Assembly (NCBI GenBank): GCA_963170185.1
Contig: CAUJGS010000092.1
Span: 1 to 36,108, forward strand
Length of the DNA: 36,108 nucleotides
Source: Bdellovibrionota bacterium
GTDB taxonomy: Bacteria; Bdellovibrionota; Bdellovibrionia; Bdellovibrionales; JAMPXM01
Direction of reading: 5' to 3'
The position numbers were made by a program, and so were the translations under genes. This document shows positions 17,698-32,545 of this stretch, one piece after another. Below the pieces are notes generated by a model. That model saw nothing but the letters and a program-made list of their open reading frames with translations. It did no database searches and was not told the DNA's origin. Positions within the stretch are counted from its first letter, which is position 1, and each line of letters opens with the position of its first letter.

Positions 17698-19167
17698 TTA
17701 CGACTTCTTACCGAGGTAAGCCGTCACTTTAAGTTCCACACATATCGGAGTTGGAAGCGATGTCACTTCGACAGTCGTACGCGTGGGACTTGGTCCCCCC
17801 TCATAGCCAAAGTGCTCACCATAAACTTGATTGAACTTTGCAAAGTCGCGCTTCATATCGGTTAAAAACACCTGCACATCGACCACGTCATGAAGACTGC
17901 TTCCCGCCTCTTCCAAAACTGCCTGGATGTTTTCGAGGACGGACCTCGTCTGAACGACGACATCGTGTCCCACCACATCTCCGCCGGCGTCCACCATCAC
18001 GCCCGGAATATCTTTGGTTCCAGGCTTGCGTGGACCGACGCCGCTTAAGAAAAGAAAGTCTCCAACCCGCTTCGCGTGAGGATACGGACCCACCGGCGGC
18101 GGCGCTTTTTTGGAACTGACATTGCCAGCAGCGGTCTTGGGGGCCTCATAAGTTACAATCGAAGAAACTCCGCCTCGCGAAGAAGTCTCCATCTTCGTTT
18201 CGACATCTGGCTTTGTTTCAACCGTTTTCTTTTTGTCGCCACTAAAACGTTCGACCAAGTCCGCTTCGTCGTTTACCCAATCAGGAAGCGAGTGGATGCC
18301 TCGTTTGGGATAGAGACCGACAACACCAGCCCCCGTTCCAAAAACAGGCTCGTAACCAAACACCTGGCCCTCAAAGTCATTGGTCTTCCCGACCAAGCCA
18401 TTGAGCCACCAGATTCCACGAAACCCCATATCCGCATTGGCCTGCCGCGAGTACTCGCGCGCCACTTCCGAGACATCCTCTAAACGCCCCTCACTTAAGA
18501 TCTCCAGAATCTTCTGATTCCACTCATCGTCTTTTTGAGACGAGAAGCGATCTTCGCCATAAGGGATCTCCTCGGTGTGATAGCGACTTGAAAGTCCACT
18601 GACGCAAACCACGACTGTTTTCAAACCACGCTTTTCGATCGCACGCATCGCCGCCTGACCGATCGAGAGCGTCTCTTGCTTTTCGGCATACATATTACAA
18701 GACGCCATCGCCGCCGGAATCCGATTCTGAGGATTCAAAAGTTTTTGCGCGACGACCGTTCCAGTGTCGATCGGGAAGCCCTTGTAGTTCACTTCACGGG
18801 TGTAGTGCCCCATCTCTTTTACTTCGCTCGCATAAAGCGAGGCGAACTTCGTGTCGACCTTGAACTCATAAGGCATCGAACCGAACTCGTGCCAGTTGGA
18901 GTCAACCAGTGTCCACTTAGGGTTTGGATCCGCCTGAAAGAGATAGCCAAGCACCGTCAGCCACTGCGTCGAGAAGTAGAGAATCATCTCTGCGTCGGAC
19001 TGTTCGATCTCTTTTCTAACCTGGTCCATGGATTCACGGAGGCGCTTCCAACCCGCATTTTTTTCGGACGCAAGCAGCGGGTGCGGTAGCCCCGGCACCA
19101 CGTAGCATGCCGTGACCAAAGAGCCGCCTGGAGTTTTCAATTTTCGGATTTCCGAGCGAGTCTTCAT
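17698..19167 (-). CDS. Non-catalytic LigB-type dioxygenase subunit fused to RidA/2-aminomuconate deaminase domain
   Basis: A 489-residue fusion. Residues ~1-300 match the class III extradiol LigB fold of 2-aminophenol 1,6-dioxygenase alpha subunits: LVTACYVVPGLPHPLL, then AEMILYFSTQWL, GLKTVVVCVSGLSSRYH and FGYEPVFGTGAGVVG. The iron ligands are lost; the site equivalent to His62 of the catalytic subunit is Phe65 (YFSTQW). Residues ~300-354 are a charged linker. Residues 355-489 are a RidA/YjgF domain of the AmnD type: GPYPHAKRVGDFLFLSGVGP, then LPTPICVELKV, with the conserved Arg in SPTRTTVEV. It starts by an ATGA overlap with the catalytic subunit (19164-19167), so the two are translationally coupled. 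Fusing the deaminase to the structural subunit would hand 2-aminomuconate-type product directly on (inference). Confidence 0.88.
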   Translation of the reverse strand: MKTRSEIRKLKTPGGSLVTACYVVPGLPHPLLASEKNAGWKRLRESMDQVRKEIEQSDAEMILYFSTQWLTVLGYLFQADPNPKWTLVDSNWHEFGSMPYEFKVDTKFASLYASEVKEMGHYTREVNYKGFPIDTGTVVAQKLLNPQNRIPAAMASCNMYAEKQETLSIGQAAMRAIEKRGLKTVVVCVSGLSSRYHTEEIPYGEDRFSSQKDDEWNQKILEILSEGRLEDVSEVAREYSRQANADMGFRGIWWLNGLVGKTNDFEGQVFGYEPVFGTGAGVVGLYPKRGIHSLPDWVNDEADLVERFSGDKKKTVETKPDVETKMETSSRGGVSSIVTYEAPKTAAGNVSSKKAPPPVGPYPHAKRVGDFLFLSGVGPRKPGTKDIPGVMVDAGGDVVGHDVVVQTRSVLENIQAVLEEAGSSLHDVVDVQVFLTDMKRDFAKFNQVYGEHFGYEGGPSPTRTTVEVTSLPTPICVELKVTAYLGKKS

Positions 19168-20078
19168 ATTTTCACCTCGCCACCAGCGTGTTTGAAGTGA
19201 TCCCATTCGACGACAGCGTTTCCAGTTCCAATTACCGATCCATAGGCGTGAACTTCCGCCGGATAAGACGGAAACCCGAGCGCAGAAAGCATCCATGTCA
19301 GGGCTCCTGCCTTCACTTCCGCCAGCGCCATGTCCATAAACTCTGGAAGCGAGTCCACCAACTGACGAGAACGTCCCGCCTTCATGAGTTTCAACATCTC
19401 CATATCCCATAGGTACTGACCATGGTGGTAGATGTGCTCAAACGACATATCTTCTGGAATCTCGGGCTCGGTCGTGAAATGCCGATGCGACATCGAATTG
19501 CTGGCAAGCAATACGGCACGCTTTCCGCTGCGGGCGATCGCTCTTGCTGTCGCTCGACCAAGTTTTTCCATCTGGGCTTGGCCGACTTCATTCGAAAAAT
19601 AATACGGCGAATTGTTCGATGAGATTGCGACGATCGGAATATCAAACTCCGGCCGCGTGAGATAACAGCTCGTGATTGCGCCGTAGTCGATACGAAAATC
19701 AGGATTCTTCATGACCTTCGTGATGAGGCCCTCTTTTTTTCCTTCCTCCGCAATGAGAAGCGAGAGATCGACGTCGACCTTGAGATCGTACTGAAACCGG
19801 AAGAGATGGGGGAAAATCGGATCGACACTCAGTCCCTTGAAGTGCGGAAGCCCCAGAACATGGTGGCCAACAACTGTCATCCAGTGCGGTGAATGCACCA
19901 AAATCACATCGGGCTTTTTGTCGGGATGAGAGAAGAGACTTTGATTAAGACGCTCATATCCCCAACGAAGACCTTCCCACCCGCCTTCCGAGCGCGGTTC
20001 GTTTTGCGGAGGATTGCTTGCGTAAACCAGATGCGGTGGATGTGGCGACAAGACGCCAGCTATGATTTTCCCTGCCAT
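19164..20078 (-). CDS. amnB: Extradiol dioxygenase catalytic subunit, 2-aminophenol 1,6-dioxygenase-like
   Basis: A 304-residue LigB-type class III extradiol dioxygenase. SPHPPH gives His13 and VHSPHW gives His62, the two iron-binding histidines at the positions remembered for the 2-aminophenol dioxygenase beta subunit. Glu254 in AEVKAGALTW is the matching third ligand. Tyr132 in RIDYGAI and His198 in NSMSHRHF match the acid-base residues, all with a consistent +3 offset. It would open an aminophenol ring next to the amino group using Fe(II) and O2, giving 2-aminomuconic 6-semialdehyde. A gap of 139 bases precedes it, with a weak TTGTCT/TATCTA promoter-like pair. Substrate is inferred from family; a catechol or a substituted aminophenol is possible. 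Confidence 0.88.
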   Translation of the reverse strand: MAGKIIAGVLSPHPPHLVYASNPPQNEPRSEGGWEGLRWGYERLNQSLFSHPDKKPDVILVHSPHWMTVVGHHVLGLPHFKGLSVDPIFPHLFRFQYDLKVDVDLSLLIAEEGKKEGLITKVMKNPDFRIDYGAITSCYLTRPEFDIPIVAISSNNSPYYFSNEVGQAQMEKLGRATARAIARSGKRAVLLASNSMSHRHFTTEPEIPEDMSFEHIYHHGQYLWDMEMLKLMKAGRSRQLVDSLPEFMDMALAEVKAGALTWMLSALGFPSYPAEVHAYGSVIGTGNAVVEWDHFKHAGGEVKI

Positions 20079-20217
20079 ATTGAGAATTTCTACTAGATAG
20101 TCCGGCTCTGACGCTAGACAAAAGTTGGTTCCGTAGAGAGATCTATCCCGGTTGTCGCGAAAAAAAATAAACCCATTTTAGGCGCACAAAGGCCTGGGCC
20201 GGCCGAAGCTGGACAGA

Positions 20218-21186
20218 CTAGTCTTCAATCGGCTGAACGATCGAAGAGTCACCGGCCGCAGACGGTGTGTGCGCAGTCGGCGAAGCCGGCTCACGGGTTT
20301 GAACAGGCTCGGAACTCAAAACGTCGTCGGCCTTCACGGCATCTAAAAGCAAATGACCGTTTGCCGACGCTAGTCGCTTCACGATCGGGCCACTCTCTAC
20401 AGCTATGGCTTGATCTTGAACCGTGATCTTTAAACCCTGAGCAGCAAGAGAGTCCGCTTCTGGCAAAGGGAATTCCAATCGCTTGGACCAATCGATCTTT
20501 AAAGTCTCTTCGCTTTTTGCTCGACTGAGATGAATGATCCAGACGGAGTCTTTGCGTCGAAGCGCCAACAGCGAACCCGCATCGACAATTTCTCCGACAG
20601 AGACTTCGAAGTCATCGCCCTCTTTGGCGTCTCGAAAACCGAACACGCGCTTGTCGCCGGATTCCGAGACAAGCATCGCGCCCGTCTCAAGAGGAATTAA
20701 ACGATACCCTTTTAACGAAGGGTTCGTGTAACCCGCTTCCGGAATCACGGAGAATTGAAGTTCCAAGGAGACCGACGCGCGTGGCTCCGATGGTTTTTCG
20801 GTCGCTTCTTCCGCAGGCAAGCTCGCCACTTCCGGTTTCGACACAGGCTCAGCGACCATCGCCAAACGTAAGAAAGCCTCGTCGTATTTCTTTCGAAGCT
20901 CCGAGAGCGATGGAACTTCGATATTTTTATCGGCTTTCATTTCCTGCTCGATCACATGCAAAAGCGCCTGATACTCGTTCGTGCCTGGCTTAAGCCGTCC
21001 CTCAAGATCGGAAAAAGCATGCTCCGCCATCTTTCCCCCGGACTTCATGTCCACGACAATTTCTCGACTGACTTCATCTAAAAAAAGAAGGCCAGCATCC
21101 TTTGAGGTTTTTGCTTCCGCGAAAACAGCCGTAAGAAGCAACAGTACGCAGGCCATGATTCGAGCTGAACGATAGAGGGAACGCAT
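20218..21186 (-). CDS. Exported protein of unknown function inside the dioxygenase cluster
   Basis: A 322-residue product with a signal peptide (RIMACVLLLLTAVFAEAK). The mature part starts with a helical region (residues ~40-120). A Pro/Glu-rich linker (AEPVSKPEVASLPAEEATEKPSEPRASVS) follows, then a beta-rich region (FSVIPEAGYTNPSLKGYRLIPL, VFGFRDAKEGDDFEVSVGEIV, SVWIIHLSRAKSEETLKIDW) and a disordered Pro/Thr/Ser tail. It has no recognised family and no metabolic motif, so it looks like an unrelated insertion between the aldehyde dehydrogenase and the dioxygenase genes. A short GGCAG-AAA-CTGCC hairpin (21201-21213) lies just upstream. Confidence 0.78.
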   Translation of the reverse strand: MRSLYRSARIMACVLLLLTAVFAEAKTSKDAGLLFLDEVSREIVVDMKSGGKMAEHAFSDLEGRLKPGTNEYQALLHVIEQEMKADKNIEVPSLSELRKKYDEAFLRLAMVAEPVSKPEVASLPAEEATEKPSEPRASVSLELQFSVIPEAGYTNPSLKGYRLIPLETGAMLVSESGDKRVFGFRDAKEGDDFEVSVGEIVDAGSLLALRRKDSVWIIHLSRAKSEETLKIDWSKRLEFPLPEADSLAAQGLKITVQDQAIAVESGPIVKRLASANGHLLLDAVKADDVLSSEPVQTREPASPTAHTPSAAGDSSIVQPIED

Positions 21187-21274
21187 ATATTCAGGCTAAC
21201 GGCAGAAACTGCCAAACTCCAGTCTAAAAATGCGAGATTTTCCGGACATTTCTCTGTGATCTCTCACCTGTTTC

Positions 21275-22765
21275 TTACCAGGCGATATTGACGGTTTTCG
21301 CCTCCGTGAAGACATTCACAGAGTCCAACTGCCCCTCGCGTCCCATACCAGATTCTTTGAATCCACCAAACGGCATACGAAGATCGCGCGCCATCCAGCC
21401 ATTGACCCAAACTGTTCCAGCATCAAGCTTCGCCGCCACTCCATGTGCAAGAGCCAGCGACTCCGTCCAAATCGTGGCCGCCAAACCATAGCGCGTGCCG
21501 TTGGCTAGACGAACGACATCGTCTTCCGTAACAAATGGTGTGATCGTGACCACCGGACCAAAAACTTCTTCTTGCTGAAGGCGAGAGCCTTGGAACTTCT
21601 CAAGACCCTTCAGTTTCTCATCCAAATTTTTACCAGCGGGAGTGATCACGGTCGGCGCCACATAAAAACCACGTTCAAGACCCTTCGGCGCCCCGCCGCC
21701 GCAGTGCAATTCCATACCTTGCGCGCGAGCCTCTTCGATAAACCCGAGCACTTTCTCGCGATGCTCACGAGAAACCAGCGGCCCCATAAAGGTGTCTCTC
21801 GCCGCCGGATCTCCGACCTTCAAGGCCGAGGCTTCCGCGACAAAACGTTTCACAAACTCTTCGAAACGATCCTTTTGAACGTAGATACGTGAGCCGCAGA
21901 GACAGATTTCACCTTGGTTCAAAAACGACGAACGCACGATCATCTTCATGTGGCGATCAAGATCCGCGTCTTTCATCACGATCGTCGGATTTTTTCCACC
22001 AAGCTCGAGTGAGATTTTTTTTAGCTGCGGAGCAGCCGTCTCCGCTATTTTTCTTCCAGTCGATGTTCCGCCGGTGAACGAAATCACCTTCACATCGCGA
22101 TGTTCCACCAGGGCCTGACCAGCTTCCGAACCGAGGCCAAACACGAGATTCACGACACCTTTTGGAAGACCGGCCTGCACAAAAATTTCGGCCAAGATCG
22201 CAGCCGTGTGAGACGTCATCTCGCTTGGCTTTGCCACACAAGTGTTTCCGTAAGCGATCGCCGGCGCGATTTTCCAAGTGAGCAGATATATCGGAAGATT
22301 CCATGGGCTAATGAGCCCCGCCACGCCAATCGGCTCCCGACGAACATAGGAAAAACTCTTTGGATTCATCGGAGCCGCCACCGAGAGTTCGTGACGAATG
22401 ATGCCGGCGAAAAATCGAAAATTGTAAGCGGCGCGCGGAATATCAAGTGTCGAAGCAAGGCCTACAGGCTTTCCTTGGTCCGCACTCTCAGCATGAACCA
22501 ACTCGTCACGTCGCTCATCGATAAGATCCGCAATCCGATCGAGATACTTGGCGCGCTCTTCAACCGTGAGTGCGCTCCAAATAGGAAACGCTCGCTTCGC
22601 GGCAGCCACCGCGTTTGCAACGTCTTCACTTCCGCTAAGCGGCACTTCGACGTGGGTCTCTTCGGTCGCTGGATTGGGGGATGCGAGATACTTTCCGTTC
22701 ACCGGGGCAAGAAACTCTCCGTCGATAAAGTTCTTAAGTCGCAAAGCACTGGTGGACTGACTCAT
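21275..22765 (-). CDS. amnC: Aldehyde dehydrogenase, 2-aminomuconic/2-hydroxymuconic semialdehyde dehydrogenase-like
   Basis: A 496-residue NAD-dependent aldehyde dehydrogenase of full family length. It has SPWNLP (Asn156), SLELGGKNP (Glu254) and NQGEICLCGSR with catalytic Cys288, plus the NAD loop SFTGGTSTG. It carries the hallmark IPRAAYNFRFFAG and a C-terminal RDLRMPFGGFKESGMGREG with the substrate-carboxylate arginine (about 460) seen in DmpC/AmnC-type muconic semialdehyde dehydrogenases. It would oxidise the ring-cleavage product to 2-aminomuconate or an analogue. Its ATG overlaps the asparaginase stop as ATGA (22762-22765), so it is coupled to it. The AmnC sub-type is inferred from motifs plus the LigB and RidA neighbours. 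Confidence 0.87.
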   Translation of the reverse strand: MSQSTSALRLKNFIDGEFLAPVNGKYLASPNPATEETHVEVPLSGSEDVANAVAAAKRAFPIWSALTVEERAKYLDRIADLIDERRDELVHAESADQGKPVGLASTLDIPRAAYNFRFFAGIIRHELSVAAPMNPKSFSYVRREPIGVAGLISPWNLPIYLLTWKIAPAIAYGNTCVAKPSEMTSHTAAILAEIFVQAGLPKGVVNLVFGLGSEAGQALVEHRDVKVISFTGGTSTGRKIAETAAPQLKKISLELGGKNPTIVMKDADLDRHMKMIVRSSFLNQGEICLCGSRIYVQKDRFEEFVKRFVAEASALKVGDPAARDTFMGPLVSREHREKVLGFIEEARAQGMELHCGGGAPKGLERGFYVAPTVITPAGKNLDEKLKGLEKFQGSRLQQEEVFGPVVTITPFVTEDDVVRLANGTRYGLAATIWTESLALAHGVAAKLDAGTVWVNGWMARDLRMPFGGFKESGMGREGQLDSVNVFTEAKTVNIAW

Positions 22766-23793
22766 ACGCGCACTCCCACATACTTATTGAAATCAAACTC
22801 CCAACGATCTTCATCGGGATCCCACGCATCGAATGGCTCGATTTCACTCATACGATGACGAAGGCTTGGCGGAATCAAATCGGGCACGATATAAGCCTTT
22901 TGGCGATCCAAGCGATATGGATTCCTCAGCTTATAGCCAAGTACGCCAAGAACATAGCGAGCCACAAACCACGCCGCAGTCGTATCCCAACCGTGCGCGA
23001 TCTTGATCACGATACCAAGTCCCTCGGGGAATTCCGGATGTTTGATCGCAAGCCCCAAGAGCCCGTCGGCACCCTCTTTGGCAATCACTTCACCACCACA
23101 GCTTTTTAGAATCGTCGAATCCAGACGATTGAAGCCGCCAACAAGATCCGGTTTTTCGACCATCGCCGACCAGATCCAATCGTCGTCACGTGTCACCGCC
23201 AAATCCGCATACACCCTTGCAAGCTCTGTCACCGTCATCGAAACCGTCGGAAGCCCGCAACCGTCTTTGGCCGTCACTTGCGGATCCCAATTGTTGCCAA
23301 GGGCGCGACGAACGACATCGAGATACGACTGGTGATACGGGTGATGAGGCCAGGTGTATCCGACACGTGACCAGCCGCGAATCTGACAGCCGCGCAAGAT
23401 CGCCGCGTGTTTTCCGGAACAAGGATGGTACCAGCGACGCGCGCGACGCATTTGCCGCCCGAACTGCATCAGCGGAAGCGAGAAAGGCGTCTGCATCAAT
23501 CCCATCTCGCTAGGTTTCAAAATCGCTTGCACCGCTTGAATATGGTCCGGCTCCGCATTGTGACTTGCTACCGACACCGCTTTTGATTCGACCGACAAAA
23601 TTTCGTCCAGCTCTTTTGCAAAAACCTTAAGCTGAAGCGGCTTCATCATCGAGCGCCCATAACAAAGAACATTTCCGCCCCACGCGTGAATCAGCTTTCG
23701 ACCGCTGACCCAAGACACAGCACCGTGAATGGTGATTTCACTCACGCCATTGCGACGATAATCGACTAGCGGAACCCAGACGTCATCACTCAT
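22762..23793 (-). CDS. Asparaginase II-type (Rhizobium etli AspII-like) amidohydrolase
   Basis: A 343-residue cytosolic protein of the asparaginase_II family (PF06089 type). It keeps the known catalytic set: Ser48 and Lys51 in GRSMMKP (SxxK), then CSGKH with the zinc-binding Cys and Lys, KDGCGLP with a second Cys, and KSCGGEV with a third. The family hydrolyses L-asparagine, but distant members act on other amides. It sits between the flavin monooxygenase and the aldehyde dehydrogenase with ATGA overlaps on both sides (23790-23793 and 22762-22765), which argues that it works in the same pathway rather than in asparagine metabolism (inference). The start at 23793 is set by the overlap. Confidence 0.85.
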   Translation of the reverse strand: MSDDVWVPLVDYRRNGVSEITIHGAVSWVSGRKLIHAWGGNVLCYGRSMMKPLQLKVFAKELDEILSVESKAVSVASHNAEPDHIQAVQAILKPSEMGLMQTPFSLPLMQFGRQMRRARRWYHPCSGKHAAILRGCQIRGWSRVGYTWPHHPYHQSYLDVVRRALGNNWDPQVTAKDGCGLPTVSMTVTELARVYADLAVTRDDDWIWSAMVEKPDLVGGFNRLDSTILKSCGGEVIAKEGADGLLGLAIKHPEFPEGLGIVIKIAHGWDTTAAWFVARYVLGVLGYKLRNPYRLDRQKAYIVPDLIPPSLRHRMSEIEPFDAWDPDEDRWEFDFNKYVGVRV

Positions 23794-25037
23794 GACACCC
23801 GCCCTTTCACATGTGGCGCACACTTTTCCATGAAAAGCCGCATGGCGTGTTTCACGGCTTGATTGTCGTGGTTGTTGAAGTCAAACCAAAGCATCAGGCG
23901 GTCATCGGCATGAAACCGCTCGTTCATTTGCGAAACGATGTCCTCTGGACTTCCAACCAATGCATTGTCCACGGCTTGAGAAACCTTCAGCGGATCAAGT
24001 GTCCCTTCGACCGCTTTCCAATAGTTCGCGACAGCCTTTTCAGCTTCACTGCGGGCTTTGGCTCGATCTTCGTTCACGAAGACCAAAACTGTTCGCGGCA
24101 TGAGATCACGCGACCATATCCCAGGAGCCGCTCCCCACTCGCTTCCCGCCGCTCGTGCTTGGTAGGTTTTCGACATGCGAGCATGCGTCGCCTCGATCTG
24201 CGCGCCGGGCGTGATGGAGAGATTAAAAACACCGCAAGGAAGTATGGTATTGGCAAAATCTTGAGTCTCGGCATCGTGAGCGCCGATCGTCAGACGAAGA
24301 TTTCGCATCGGAGCTTCAAATGGAATCACGCCGACTTTTTCGAAGTCCCAAAACGGCGGAATCTCGATCACATCGTCAGCCTTCGCCAACTGCGCGACCT
24401 TGCTCCAGTCTTCGTCGCTGCGAAAGTTTCTTCGCGTAAGCTTCAACTGCGTTTCGAGGTCTTCTCTTGCGATGATATCGCCGCGAAGAAGGCGTAAGAA
24501 AATCTCTGTCGCCTGTCGGAAGATCACGCCACGAAGTGCCGGCCAGGCCAATGTTTCAACCGGTGTTCTTGGGCGAATTCCATAGGGAAGATTCGAAAAT
24601 GGGAACCGTCCCGAGGCAAATCCGATTTCCAGTCGGCGACTTTCGGCTCCCAGTTTTGGGTCTCTCCCCAAACCCAGCTCATGAATGGAAAGAAACATCT
24701 TGATGGCTTCCGCGTGAGCGATCGGCCCGCCGTTACATTGAATATTGCGAATCGCCGAACCGATATGAATATTCTTGGTTCGCGCAAACAACGCATGCGC
24801 GACTTGCAAGATGTCCGTATTGAGGCCGATCTCTCCCTCGAAATGCGGAATGACCGCGAAGCTATTCTGCTTTTGCACCTGACAACTGAGATGAGTCTCG
24901 GCGACCCATGCACAGCCAAAGCCCAGCTGATCTGCCCATATTGCCTGATCAAAGAAGTTCTGAAACATCACTCGCTCTGACGGTGTGTAACCATCGACCG
25001 GTGTTTGGCAGATCGAGAAAAAGACATCAAACTTCAC
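23790..25037 (-). CDS. Luciferase-like (LLM) flavin-dependent monooxygenase
   Basis: A 415-residue member of the bacterial luciferase-like superfamily. The N-terminus MKFDVFFSICQTPVDGYTPSE and DQAIWADQLGFGCAWVAETHL carry the strand-1 and (W/A)E-x-H motifs. NIHIGSAIRNIQCNGGPIAHAEA and a C-terminal SPEDIVSQMNERFHADDRLMLWFDFNNHDNQ complete the TIM-barrel pattern. It starts at GTG with AGAGGGG upstream, 12 bases after the SDR stop. Such enzymes use reduced FMN from a partner reductase to insert oxygen, for example into pyridine, pyrimidine or sulfonate substrates. The substrate here is unknown; the cluster suggests an aromatic amine or N-heterocycle. A flavin-reductase-like gene is at 26641 on the other strand. 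Confidence 0.87.
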   Translation of the reverse strand: MKFDVFFSICQTPVDGYTPSERVMFQNFFDQAIWADQLGFGCAWVAETHLSCQVQKQNSFAVIPHFEGEIGLNTDILQVAHALFARTKNIHIGSAIRNIQCNGGPIAHAEAIKMFLSIHELGLGRDPKLGAESRRLEIGFASGRFPFSNLPYGIRPRTPVETLAWPALRGVIFRQATEIFLRLLRGDIIAREDLETQLKLTRRNFRSDEDWSKVAQLAKADDVIEIPPFWDFEKVGVIPFEAPMRNLRLTIGAHDAETQDFANTILPCGVFNLSITPGAQIEATHARMSKTYQARAAGSEWGAAPGIWSRDLMPRTVLVFVNEDRAKARSEAEKAVANYWKAVEGTLDPLKVSQAVDNALVGSPEDIVSQMNERFHADDRLMLWFDFNNHDNQAVKHAMRLFMEKCAPHVKGRVS

Positions 25038-25049
25038 GAAGTCCCCTCT

Positions 25050-25940
25050 CTACACCGAACCCAAGCGCCCACCGTCAACGGCAAGCGCTTGGCCTGTGAT
25101 AAATGAAGCCGCAGGCGATGCAAAAAAGGCCACGGCCGAGGCAATCTCTTCTGGCTCACCAAGACGACCCATCGGGGTTGACTTGATCCACTCTTCGACG
25201 ACCTCTTCTTTTTTAATACCCCGCTTTGTCGCCTGTGCCTCCGACAGTTCGTCGAGTCTCGTGGTTCGCGTGAATCCAGGTAGAACCATATTCACCGTGA
25301 TCCCAAACGGCGCCAACTCTCCGGCCATGGTCTTGCACCATGCGGCCATTGCCCACCTAGTGGAGTTGGAAACGCCAAGACCCGCGATCGGCTGTCGCAC
25401 GGAGGTTGAAAGGATGCTAACGATACGTCCCTGCCCGCGATGCTTCATGCCCGGAACATACATTTTGGCAAGTATTTGACTGCTGACAAGATGCCCCTCG
25501 ATGGCCTTACGAAACTCATCGACATCGGCGTCAAGAACCGAGCCGCCCTTTGGACCACCAGAATTCAGTACCAAGATGTCGACCGCGCCGGTGTCGAGAA
25601 CGAGTTTTTTGAGCTCTGACTCTAGAGTTTCGGTTTTTGAAAGATCACAGACGAAGGCTTTGTGGGCTTTCAAAATCGTTTCTTTCGGCGAGGGACCTGG
25701 AACTTCGATCAGCGGCAATTCATCGACAAGCGACTTCAGTTCACCAGCGCTGCGACCGCAGGCGATGACACGCACGCCACGCGAAGCCAAGTGGCGGGCG
25801 ACGGCTCGGCCGATGCCTTTTGAAGCGCCTCCCACAAACGCTGTTCGCAGGATTCCGCCAGGCGCCGGGATCACGGGAACTGACATTTCGCCCGTATCTG
25901 CGACAGCTCCGAGTCCACCTTTGTCTGCTCCCTTAGCCAT
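25050..25940 (-). CDS. Divergent short-chain dehydrogenase/reductase lacking canonical Tyr and Lys
   Basis: A 296-residue SDR. The Rossmann start FVGGASKGIGRAVARHLASRG and the LNSGGPKGGSV segment are clear, as are GITVNMVLPGFTRTTRL and the end ITGQALAVDGGR. The usual YxxxK catalytic pair is replaced by VSNST in GLGVSNSTRWAMAAWCKTMA. The Ser in SILSTS is retained. This matches the known SDR subgroup with LSNxxR in that place, whose chemistry is poorly defined. The N-terminal ~45 residues are an extra low-complexity extension (MAKGADKGGLGAVADTGEMS). The ATG at 25940 follows GGAGGCGAGG. It is first in the dioxygenase cluster. Confidence 0.83.
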   Translation of the reverse strand: MAKGADKGGLGAVADTGEMSVPVIPAPGGILRTAFVGGASKGIGRAVARHLASRGVRVIACGRSAGELKSLVDELPLIEVPGPSPKETILKAHKAFVCDLSKTETLESELKKLVLDTGAVDILVLNSGGPKGGSVLDADVDEFRKAIEGHLVSSQILAKMYVPGMKHRGQGRIVSILSTSVRQPIAGLGVSNSTRWAMAAWCKTMAGELAPFGITVNMVLPGFTRTTRLDELSEAQATKRGIKKEEVVEEWIKSTPMGRLGEPEEIASAVAFFASPAASFITGQALAVDGGRLGSV

Positions 25941-26640: not shown

Positions 26641-27426
26641 ATGGAAAACACGATGACTGAAACTCCAAAACCGGTGAACCCAACACGTATCATTCGCAAA
26701 ATGACGGTGGCTAAGATTGCCGACTACACACCGCAAATTCGCGAACTCTTTATCCAGTGCACCGAACCAAAGGATTTCGAGTTTCGCGCCGGGCAGTTCG
26801 TGATGCTCCATGTGCCACCGGACCTTTCAAACGGACCGAACGATGCCAACGGCAAACCTCTTAAACCAGCGCTGCGCGCTTATTCCATCGCCTCGACCGA
26901 CGAAAAGAAAGATGGCTTCCGTCTTGTCTTTAAATACGTCGATGGTGGACTTGCATCGAAATATGTCTGGGACCTAAAAGAAGGCGCCGTGCTTGATTTC
27001 ACGGGCCCCTTTGGTCGCGTGTTCTTCCAAGAGCCACCGACCGAACAAGTCGTGTTCTTAAACACAGGGTCCGGCGTTTCTCAGCACTTCTCGTTCATCG
27101 AATCCAATATGAAAAAACACCCCGGGCTTCGCTACCGAATGCTCTTCGGTGTTCGCCACGAAACCGATGTCTACTACCAAGAAGACCTCGGCCGCTTAAA
27201 GGCGGGACTCAAGGATTTCGACTTCCAGTATTGCTTGTCGCGTGCGACGGACTCCTGGAAGGGCCTAAAAGGTTACGTGCAAAATCACATCGACCAGTAC
27301 GACTATCTCAAAGTCCCGACGACGTTTTATCTTTGCGGAAACGGCGCCATGATCAAAGACGTGAAAACAAAGCTCGAAGCCGAGGGCTTCGATATGAAGC
27401 GCGTTTGGGCAGAGGCTTTCGACTAG
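26641..27426 (+). CDS. Ferredoxin-NADP reductase-like FAD oxidoreductase
   Basis: A 261-residue single-module reductase. An FAD-binding barrel with RAYSIAST (RxYSxxS motif), GGLASKYVWDLKEGAVLDFTGPFG and the NAD(P) domain start VFLNTGSGVSQHFSFIESNM, then FYLCGNGAMIKDVKTKL. It lacks an attached ferredoxin or heme domain, so it should pass electrons from NAD(P)H to a free acceptor (ferredoxin, flavin or a monooxygenase). It follows ppa after 11 bases and its stop TAG overlaps the GTG start of the outer-membrane protein gene. Supplying reduced flavin to the monooxygenase at 23790 is possible but inferred. An alternative start at 26653 exists. Confidence 0.87.
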   Translation: MENTMTETPKPVNPTRIIRKMTVAKIADYTPQIRELFIQCTEPKDFEFRAGQFVMLHVPPDLSNGPNDANGKPLKPALRAYSIASTDEKKDGFRLVFKYVDGGLASKYVWDLKEGAVLDFTGPFGRVFFQEPPTEQVVFLNTGSGVSQHFSFIESNMKKHPGLRYRMLFGVRHETDVYYQEDLGRLKAGLKDFDFQYCLSRATDSWKGLKGYVQNHIDQYDYLKVPTTFYLCGNGAMIKDVKTKLEAEGFDMKRVWAEAFD

Positions 27427-31570: not shown

Positions 31571-32545
31571 TTACCGTGAAATTCGGTGAGGCGAGATCGA
31601 AATGACCCAATCAGGGCCGGATTCGATCCCATAGCGCTTGGCAAAGTCCCCTTGGTTGAGCGCCAAGGACACGTTCAAAAGACTATTGAAATAAAGCAGA
31701 GGACGTCCCTTTGGAACCGCCGCAAAGGTCTCCCCGATGGGAATGACTTGGTTGTAAACCGACTTGAGGCGACCTTTGCCGTCGCGCTTGGAGATCCGCA
31801 CGCGATACTGCACGGCCGGGCCCACCAAAAGCTTGGTTTGAAACAGGTTTTTGGGAATATTGGTCCAAACATTCCCAAACTGCGGGTCGAGCACCGGGAT
31901 ATTGCCGACGATCTCGGCCGTGGACTCGTCAAACGCGGCCTTTTGGTACTCAAGTTTGGTTATACCCAAAAGATTTGGCCCCAAATCCGGGAGCGCCACA
32001 AGGCCTCCAGCCAACCTGGCGCCGACATACACGTAGAGATCACGGCCGTGAAAGGTGTAGCTCTCCTCACTCCCCTTAAGACGCTGCTTGGATTCGTCGA
32101 TCTGATAAACTGACTCGATTTCCGCCGCATCGGCGACCAAAGTGAAAAGTCCGTTATCAGGCCCGACAAAGTAGTGGCCCGACTTGGTCTTCATCACAAT
32201 CGATTTACGCTCGGAACCGACTCCCGGGTCGATGACCGACACAAACACAGTCCCTTTGGGCCAATACGAATAGGTTTGATGCAGACGATAAGACGCTTCC
32301 CAGATCGAGTAATTGGGGATCTCGTGAGTGAGGTCGCTGACCAGAACTTTTGGAGCCGTCGCAAACGCGACCCCTTTCATGGCGCTGACAGCTCCGTCGC
32401 GTAGACCAAAATCCGTCATCAAAACCAAGGCCCCGCTAGTTTCGTCTTTGGGCTTTGCGCCAGAAGACGCACAAGCCGAGAGTGCCATAATCAAAGCCAC
32501 AGCCAAATAAGTTCGTGGAAGAAATGATAGCAACAAAATGCGCAT
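31571..32545 (-). CDS. Exported lipoprotein of the SAM hydroxide adenosyltransferase (DUF62/fluorinase-like) family
   Basis: A 324-residue protein with an AGGAGG ribosome-binding site. The signal peptide ends in a lipobox LSAC with Cys25. The mature part shows the SAM-hydrolysing family: LVLMTDFGLRDGAVSAMKG, then VIDPGVGSERKSIV, GHYFVGPDNGLF and TFHGRDLYVYVGARLA. The Asp-Arg-His triad remembered for the hydroxide adenosyltransferases is here as Asp106, Arg113 and His166 with the right spacing (D+7=R; about 53 to H). Normal members are cytosolic and split SAM into adenosine and methionine. Finding one anchored outside the cytoplasm is odd, because SAM is not expected there; either SAM is released by prey/neighbours or the protein acts on another nucleoside. 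Confidence 0.88.
   Translation of the reverse strand: MRILLLSFLPRTYLAVALIMALSACASSGAKPKDETSGALVLMTDFGLRDGAVSAMKGVAFATAPKVLVSDLTHEIPNYSIWEASYRLHQTYSYWPKGTVFVSVIDPGVGSERKSIVMKTKSGHYFVGPDNGLFTLVADAAEIESVYQIDESKQRLKGSEESYTFHGRDLYVYVGARLAGGLVALPDLGPNLLGITKLEYQKAAFDESTAEIVGNIPVLDPQFGNVWTNIPKNLFQTKLLVGPAVQYRVRISKRDGKGRLKSVYNQVIPIGETFAAVPKGRPLLYFNSLLNVSLALNQGDFAKRYGIESGPDWVISISPHRISR

Follow-up and report, generated by a model that had tools for sequence, protein, structure and literature searches.

The main finding of this study is that a cluster of metabolic genes in a Bdellovibrionota bacterium quite likely degrades tryptophan by a variant of the kynurenine pathway, in which a luciferase-like flavin monooxygenase (LLM) and a class 3 (L-asparaginase II type) amidohydrolase (AsnII) replace kynurenine 3-monooxygenase (KMO) and kynureninase. 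Kynurenine catabolism is taught as requiring these last two enzymes. The cluster occupies positions 17,698 to 25,940 of a 36,108-nucleotide stretch of DNA (contig CAUJGS010000092.1, hereafter the window), which is the whole of contig C92 in a 3.5-Mb draft genome (G000). On the minus strand, its genes encode, in order, a short-chain dehydrogenase (SDR), LLM, AsnII, an aldehyde dehydrogenase (ALDH), a predicted exported protein, the catalytic subunit LigBB of a predicted ring-cleaving dioxygenase, and its partner subunit LigBA fused to a RidA-family domain; all genes given in the initial annotation are thus present, in the families and order that it listed. Comparative genomics is the basis on which we propose that this is a single pathway, that it starts from kynurenine, and that LLM and AsnII stand in for KMO and kynureninase.

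Conservation of the gene set and its link to tryptophan

The initial annotation recommended looking for the same neighbourhood in other genomes, and the gene set proves to be conserved across phyla. We searched for LLM in 99 relatives and, by profile, in named genomes, and read 34 loci from the former and 80 from the latter. LLM is found in 38 of the 99 relatives, and the profile search returned 210 loci in named genomes. The set recurs in Bdellovibrionota, Acidobacteriota, Planctomycetota and Myxococcota, with the same partners in shuffled order, AsnII following either LLM or LigBA. Within the stretch read around the 80 named loci, where many contigs end early, ALDH is present in 58, AsnII in 55, SDR in 55, LigBB in 40 and RidA in 37. 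This conservation exceeds chance by far, and recurrence in four phyla therefore strongly supports the view that the genes form one pathway; they travel or persist as a unit. An accidental gene order is ruled out by the conserved sets in both collections of loci. The gene order is conserved in other genomes, and the ALDH and LigB proteins, judged by their best solved relatives, group with the aminophenol pathway. Holophagae loci without AsnII or LigB nearby looked at one point like a break in the pathway, an objection that we dropped because these genomes carry LigBB, LigBA and AsnII at a second locus. Mirror-tree correlations among LLM, AsnII, LigBB, ALDH and SDR (0.44-0.73) were computed without a baseline, and no argument here rests on them.

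The link to tryptophan comes from both gene linkage and gene content. Tryptophan 2,3-dioxygenase (TDO) and/or kynurenine formamidase (KynB) lie about 10 kb or less from LLM in 28 of the 80 named loci, and four loci (L103, L135, L137 and L140) bring together TDO, KynB, LLM, AsnII and LigBB. In G000, TDO (C51:69641-70636) and KynB (C51:68203-68679) are encoded less than 1 kb apart on another contig, with TIGR matches below their curated cut-offs and Pfam matches above theirs. The same genome has no match to KMO, 3-hydroxyanthranilate dioxygenase (HAO) or ACMSD, and its best kynureninase match, at 25.7 bits, falls below the cut-off of 246.4. Among 51 relatives at least 90% complete, 29 with LLM and 22 without, Fisher tests that ignore phylogeny show kynureninase in 0/29 versus 5/22 (p=0.011; 0/21 versus 5/13 by genus), KMO in 0/29 versus 5/22 (p=0.011), HAO in 0/29 versus 6/22 (p=0.004), the AsnII clade in 27/29 versus 0/22 (p=2e-12) and LigBB in 26/29 versus 0/22 (p=1e-11). 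In G062, one of the two LLM-positive genomes that miss AsnII, the gene is cut by a contig end. ACMSD is restricted to the canonical set among relatives, save for a distant 35% match in the LLM-positive G111. TDO occurs with or without LLM, in all 50 relatives passing the completeness and contamination filter; KynB is found in 29/29 LLM-positive genomes, 6/6 canonical genomes and 0/10 relatives with neither module. As a separate observation, TDO stands without KynB, KMO, kynureninase, HAO or an LLM cluster in G015, G019, G020, G022, G025, G026, G030, G031, G034 and G045.

Comparing the two types of cluster shows which parts are swapped. A canonical cluster (L149, in G061) encodes an MFS protein, SDR, ACMSD, HAO, RidA, ALDH, KynB, a decarboxylase-type FAA protein, kynureninase and KMO, and L150 and L157 resemble it. 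SDR, ALDH and RidA are common to both types (with KynB in L149 and L157), whereas KMO, kynureninase, HAO and ACMSD in the canonical version correspond to LLM, AsnII, LigBB and LigBA in the variant. 2-Aminomuconate semialdehyde is made by ACMSD in the canonical route and also by 2-aminophenol 1,6-dioxygenase. Since both modules converge on this compound, and since the LigB pair and ALDH match the corresponding solved enzymes, LLM and AsnII would convert kynurenine to 2-aminophenol. That the pathway starts from L-kynurenine derived from tryptophan is well supported.

A predicted route through 2-aminophenol

In the first steps, TDO and KynB would make L-kynurenine, presumably the substrate of LLM in preference to N-formylkynurenine. 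LLM would then carry out a Baeyer-Villiger oxidation, placing an oxygen atom between the side-chain carbonyl group and the ring; the electron-rich aryl group is expected to migrate, giving a 2-aminophenyl beta-aspartyl ester that may rearrange to N-(2-hydroxyphenyl)-asparagine. Hydrolysis of the ester or of the asparagine derivative by AsnII would yield L-aspartate and 2-aminophenol. As best we can infer, Baeyer-Villiger oxidation is the simplest way for a monooxygenase and a hydrolase to turn kynurenine into 2-aminophenol, and an asparaginase-family enzyme would fit the hydrolysis of either intermediate. We think it probable that bacteria of several phyla dispense with kynureninase, KMO, HAO and ACMSD and instead use a luciferase-like kynurenine Baeyer-Villiger monooxygenase (BVMO) and an asparaginase-family beta-aspartyl-aminophenol hydrolase to obtain L-aspartate and 2-aminophenol from kynurenine.

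LLM (23790..25037, minus strand) has a weak match to Bac_luciferase (34.8 bits), and its structure model (pLDDT 89) predicts a bacterial-luciferase-like fold, as found in type II Baeyer-Villiger enzymes. In the fold ranking luciferases come first and the 3,6-diketocamphane BVMO lower (TM 0.55-0.57 to 4uwm), so the fold by itself is no proof of Baeyer-Villiger chemistry. RslO1 was considered as a luciferase-like BVMO precedent and dropped, since the published Baeyer-Villiger step is assigned to RslO9. AsnII (22762..23793, minus strand, refined start 23793; Asparaginase_II, 165 bits) is modelled with an asparaginase fold matching ReAV and ReAIV. Residues R47, S48, K51, S77 and K239 are invariant in 19 sequences of its clade and align with Arg47, Ser48, Lys51, Ser80 and Lys263 of ReAV, all five essential in that enzyme, where Arg47 holds the substrate (PMC12292245). 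The Cys-Lys-Cys zinc site is present in the AsnII of the window and replaced in many clade members, for example by Ser/His/Asp in L059, a variability that would fit a different leaving group.

The ring-cleavage module had been equated in the initial annotation with AmnBA, AmnC and AmnD of 2-aminophenol degradation, and matches to solved enzymes bear this out. LigBB (19164..20078, minus strand; LigB family) scores 404 bits against solved 2-aminophenol 1,6-dioxygenase beta subunits, and LigBA (17698..19167, minus strand, refined start 19167, 489 aa including RidA; LigB and RidA families) scores 191 bits against alpha subunits. LigBB conserves His13, His62, His198 and Glu254, presumably the metal-ligand positions by comparison with 3VSG. 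By sequence, the pair is of the 2-aminophenol 1,6-dioxygenase type, and would open the 2-aminophenol ring to 2-aminomuconate semialdehyde. ALDH (21275..22765, minus strand; Aldedh, 549 bits), of the AmnC-like 2-aminomuconate 6-semialdehyde type, would oxidise this to 2-aminomuconate. Its best solved relative is 2-aminomuconate 6-semialdehyde dehydrogenase (AMSDH), and it retains C288, E254 and N156, presumably the catalytic Cys, Glu and Asn, together with R111 and R460, presumably the substrate clamps (Arg120/Arg464 in AMSDH). The RidA domain, 2-aminomuconate deaminase-like, would deaminate 2-aminomuconate; of the 51 loci with RidA and LigBA, 24 have the two fused and 27 have them separate, a count in which some genomes appear twice through their presence in two collections.

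The SDR (25050..25940, minus strand, refined start 25940; adh_short_C2) is indeed non-canonical, the Tyr and Lys of its YxxxK motif being replaced by Ser and Arg (SxxxR). The Ser/Arg-substituted clade is conserved in canonical as well as variant kynurenine clusters, including the window SDR and its counterpart in L149. Because it lacks the catalytic Tyr/Lys and occurs in canonical and variant clusters alike, the SDR probably acts late, after ring cleavage. The earlier proposal that three extra enzymes act on an N-containing aromatic compound holds in that extra enzymes feed the module, but not for the SDR, which is not specific to the variant.

The later steps, reported as absent from the window, are absent there, and AmnE/F/G-type genes (4-oxalocrotonate decarboxylase, hydratase and aldolase) were found nowhere in G000, so that a location elsewhere in this genome is unsupported. 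An amnE/F-type pair adjoins the SDR-less clusters L075 and L096, most SDR-bearing genomes (G000 included) are without it, and L131 has both; in these three loci decarboxylase/hydratase-type FAA proteins adjoin the LLM cluster, with a DmpG-type aldolase signal between them in L131. The SDR-less clusters hint at alternative exits from 2-aminomuconate. A reductive exit to 2-oxoadipate is one possibility.

Alternative explanations and points against the route

Replacement of KMO and kynureninase by LLM and AsnII in distribution would also fit a reading in which LLM hydroxylates kynurenine at position 3, AsnII serves as an unusual kynureninase and ring cleavage acts on 3-hydroxyanthranilate, as it does in the canonical pathway. 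We consider this unlikely, since the LLM-positive genomes searched lack ACMSD, apart from the distant match in G111, and the C7 acid would therefore not reach the substrate of ALDH; moreover, the LigB pair is of the 2-aminophenol type, and a Ser-Lys amidohydrolase is improbable as a C-C hydrolase on an aryl ketone. The same chemistry might instead run in another order, LLM taking N-formylkynurenine as its substrate and the formamidase removing the formyl group only afterwards, from an aminophenol intermediate. Adjacency of KynB and TDO to LLM leaves the order unfixed, and no PF04199 match is present in an Alteromonas genome that has TDO, LLM and AsnII, but KynB likewise accompanies the canonical module, where it acts before hydroxylation, and this order of steps seems to us rather improbable. 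The initial annotation, seeing an amidohydrolase and a monooxygenase adjoin an aminophenol dioxygenase, suggested an anilide, an aminophenol amide or an N-heterocycle as substrate, and a xenobiotic pathway of this sort, unrelated to tryptophan, could free 2-aminophenol. It is very improbable given the TDO/KynB linkage across phyla, the mutual exclusivity of LLM with the canonical kynurenine enzymes, and the SDR, ALDH and RidA common to canonical clusters; tryptophan-derived kynurenine is the most likely substrate.

Several observations weigh against the proposed conversion of kynurenine by LLM and AsnII. We infer the chemistry of both steps, and the closest folds to LLM are luciferases and RslO1, not diketocamphane BVMOs specifically. 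Two genomes, G013 (L067) and G027 (L039), have adjacent KynB and LLM (with TDO too in L067) and no AsnII-clade protein, only a distant asparaginase-like protein being present; a hydrolase other than AsnII may act there. The cyanobacterium Tolypothrix campylonemoides (G108, L107) has a full-length LLM and no TDO, with only distant relatives of AsnII and KMO, and Alteromonas sp. a30 (G105, L101) is the genome with TDO, LLM and AsnII that has no PF04199 match. A partial kynureninase lies at a contig end in G110, and G111 has distant kynureninase-like and ACMSD-like proteins. Lower-pathway genes are mostly absent. Finally, many of the genomes are draft metagenome-assembled genomes, and the Fisher tests take no account of phylogeny.

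Locus context, known systems and significance

The arrangement of the locus is like that of a translationally coupled operon, as indicated by 4-base ATGA overlaps at LLM/AsnII, AsnII/ALDH and LigBB/LigBA. The predicted exported protein between ALDH and LigBB (20218..21186, minus strand) was already regarded as unrelated and is outside the pathway; it has no Pfam match, and a similar gene was found only in the same-genus G004 among the relatives scanned. This insertion spot is variable, with other genes there in G003, also of the same genus, and in G004. On the opposite strand, an FAD/NAD(P)H oxidoreductase (26641..27426, plus strand) stays close to LLM across the LLM family and is a possible source of reductant for it. 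Elsewhere in the window, positions 31571-32545 encode a SAM hydroxide adenosyltransferase in which both Pfam domains are found and which has no relation to the cluster.

TDO, KynB, ALDH, RidA, SDR and passage through 2-aminomuconate semialdehyde are shared with the canonical kynurenine/3-hydroxyanthranilate pathway, but the side product there is L-alanine, whereas L-aspartate is predicted here. The LigB-type dioxygenase pair, semialdehyde dehydrogenase and RidA-type deaminase recall 2-aminophenol (amn/cnb) meta-cleavage, which is fed by nitrobenzene or aminophenol and not, as proposed here, from kynurenine; in addition, the alpha subunit is here fused to RidA and G000 lacks detectable amnE/F/G-type genes. 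LLM resembles type II BVMOs such as 3,6-diketocamphane monooxygenase in its luciferase-like fold and proposed ketone-to-ester chemistry, but is very remote in sequence, would use another substrate and has closer folds. AsnII shares its fold, both Ser-Lys tandems and Arg47 with the class 3 L-asparaginases ReAV and ReAIV of Rhizobium etli, yet forms a distinct clade in which many members do not keep the zinc ligands and which is predicted to release aminophenol rather than ammonia. The same logic operates, with unrelated enzymes, in 4-hydroxyacetophenone degradation, where a BVMO and then an esterase convert an aryl ketone to an aryl ester and on to a phenol and an acid. The initial annotation knew of no described pathway with this exact set, and no kynurenine route via Baeyer-Villiger oxidation, 2-aminophenol or a luciferase-like monooxygenase was found in the open literature searched, most subscription papers lying outside that search. 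The route is thus likely, although not certain, to be new.

If correct, these findings would mean that a second solution to kynurenine catabolism is widespread in environmental bacteria, that the luciferase-like family includes an additional, new enzyme activity and that class 3 asparaginases can serve in a new role, and they would fill a gap in the annotation of tryptophan degradation for four phyla. They may also bear on secondary metabolism. In Alteromonas sp. a30, LLM lies next to AsnII, TDO is encoded elsewhere in the genome and no LigB pair was found, and 2-aminophenol is therefore predicted to accumulate, possibly feeding phenoxazinones. A different strain, Alteromonas sp. D, makes the phenoxazinone questiomycin A, whose production is raised by feeding o-aminophenol, and the origin of the 2-aminophenol precursor was left untraced in that work (PMC6943571). 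If the proposed route operates, it may explain where the 2-aminophenol for Alteromonas phenoxazinones such as questiomycin A comes from.

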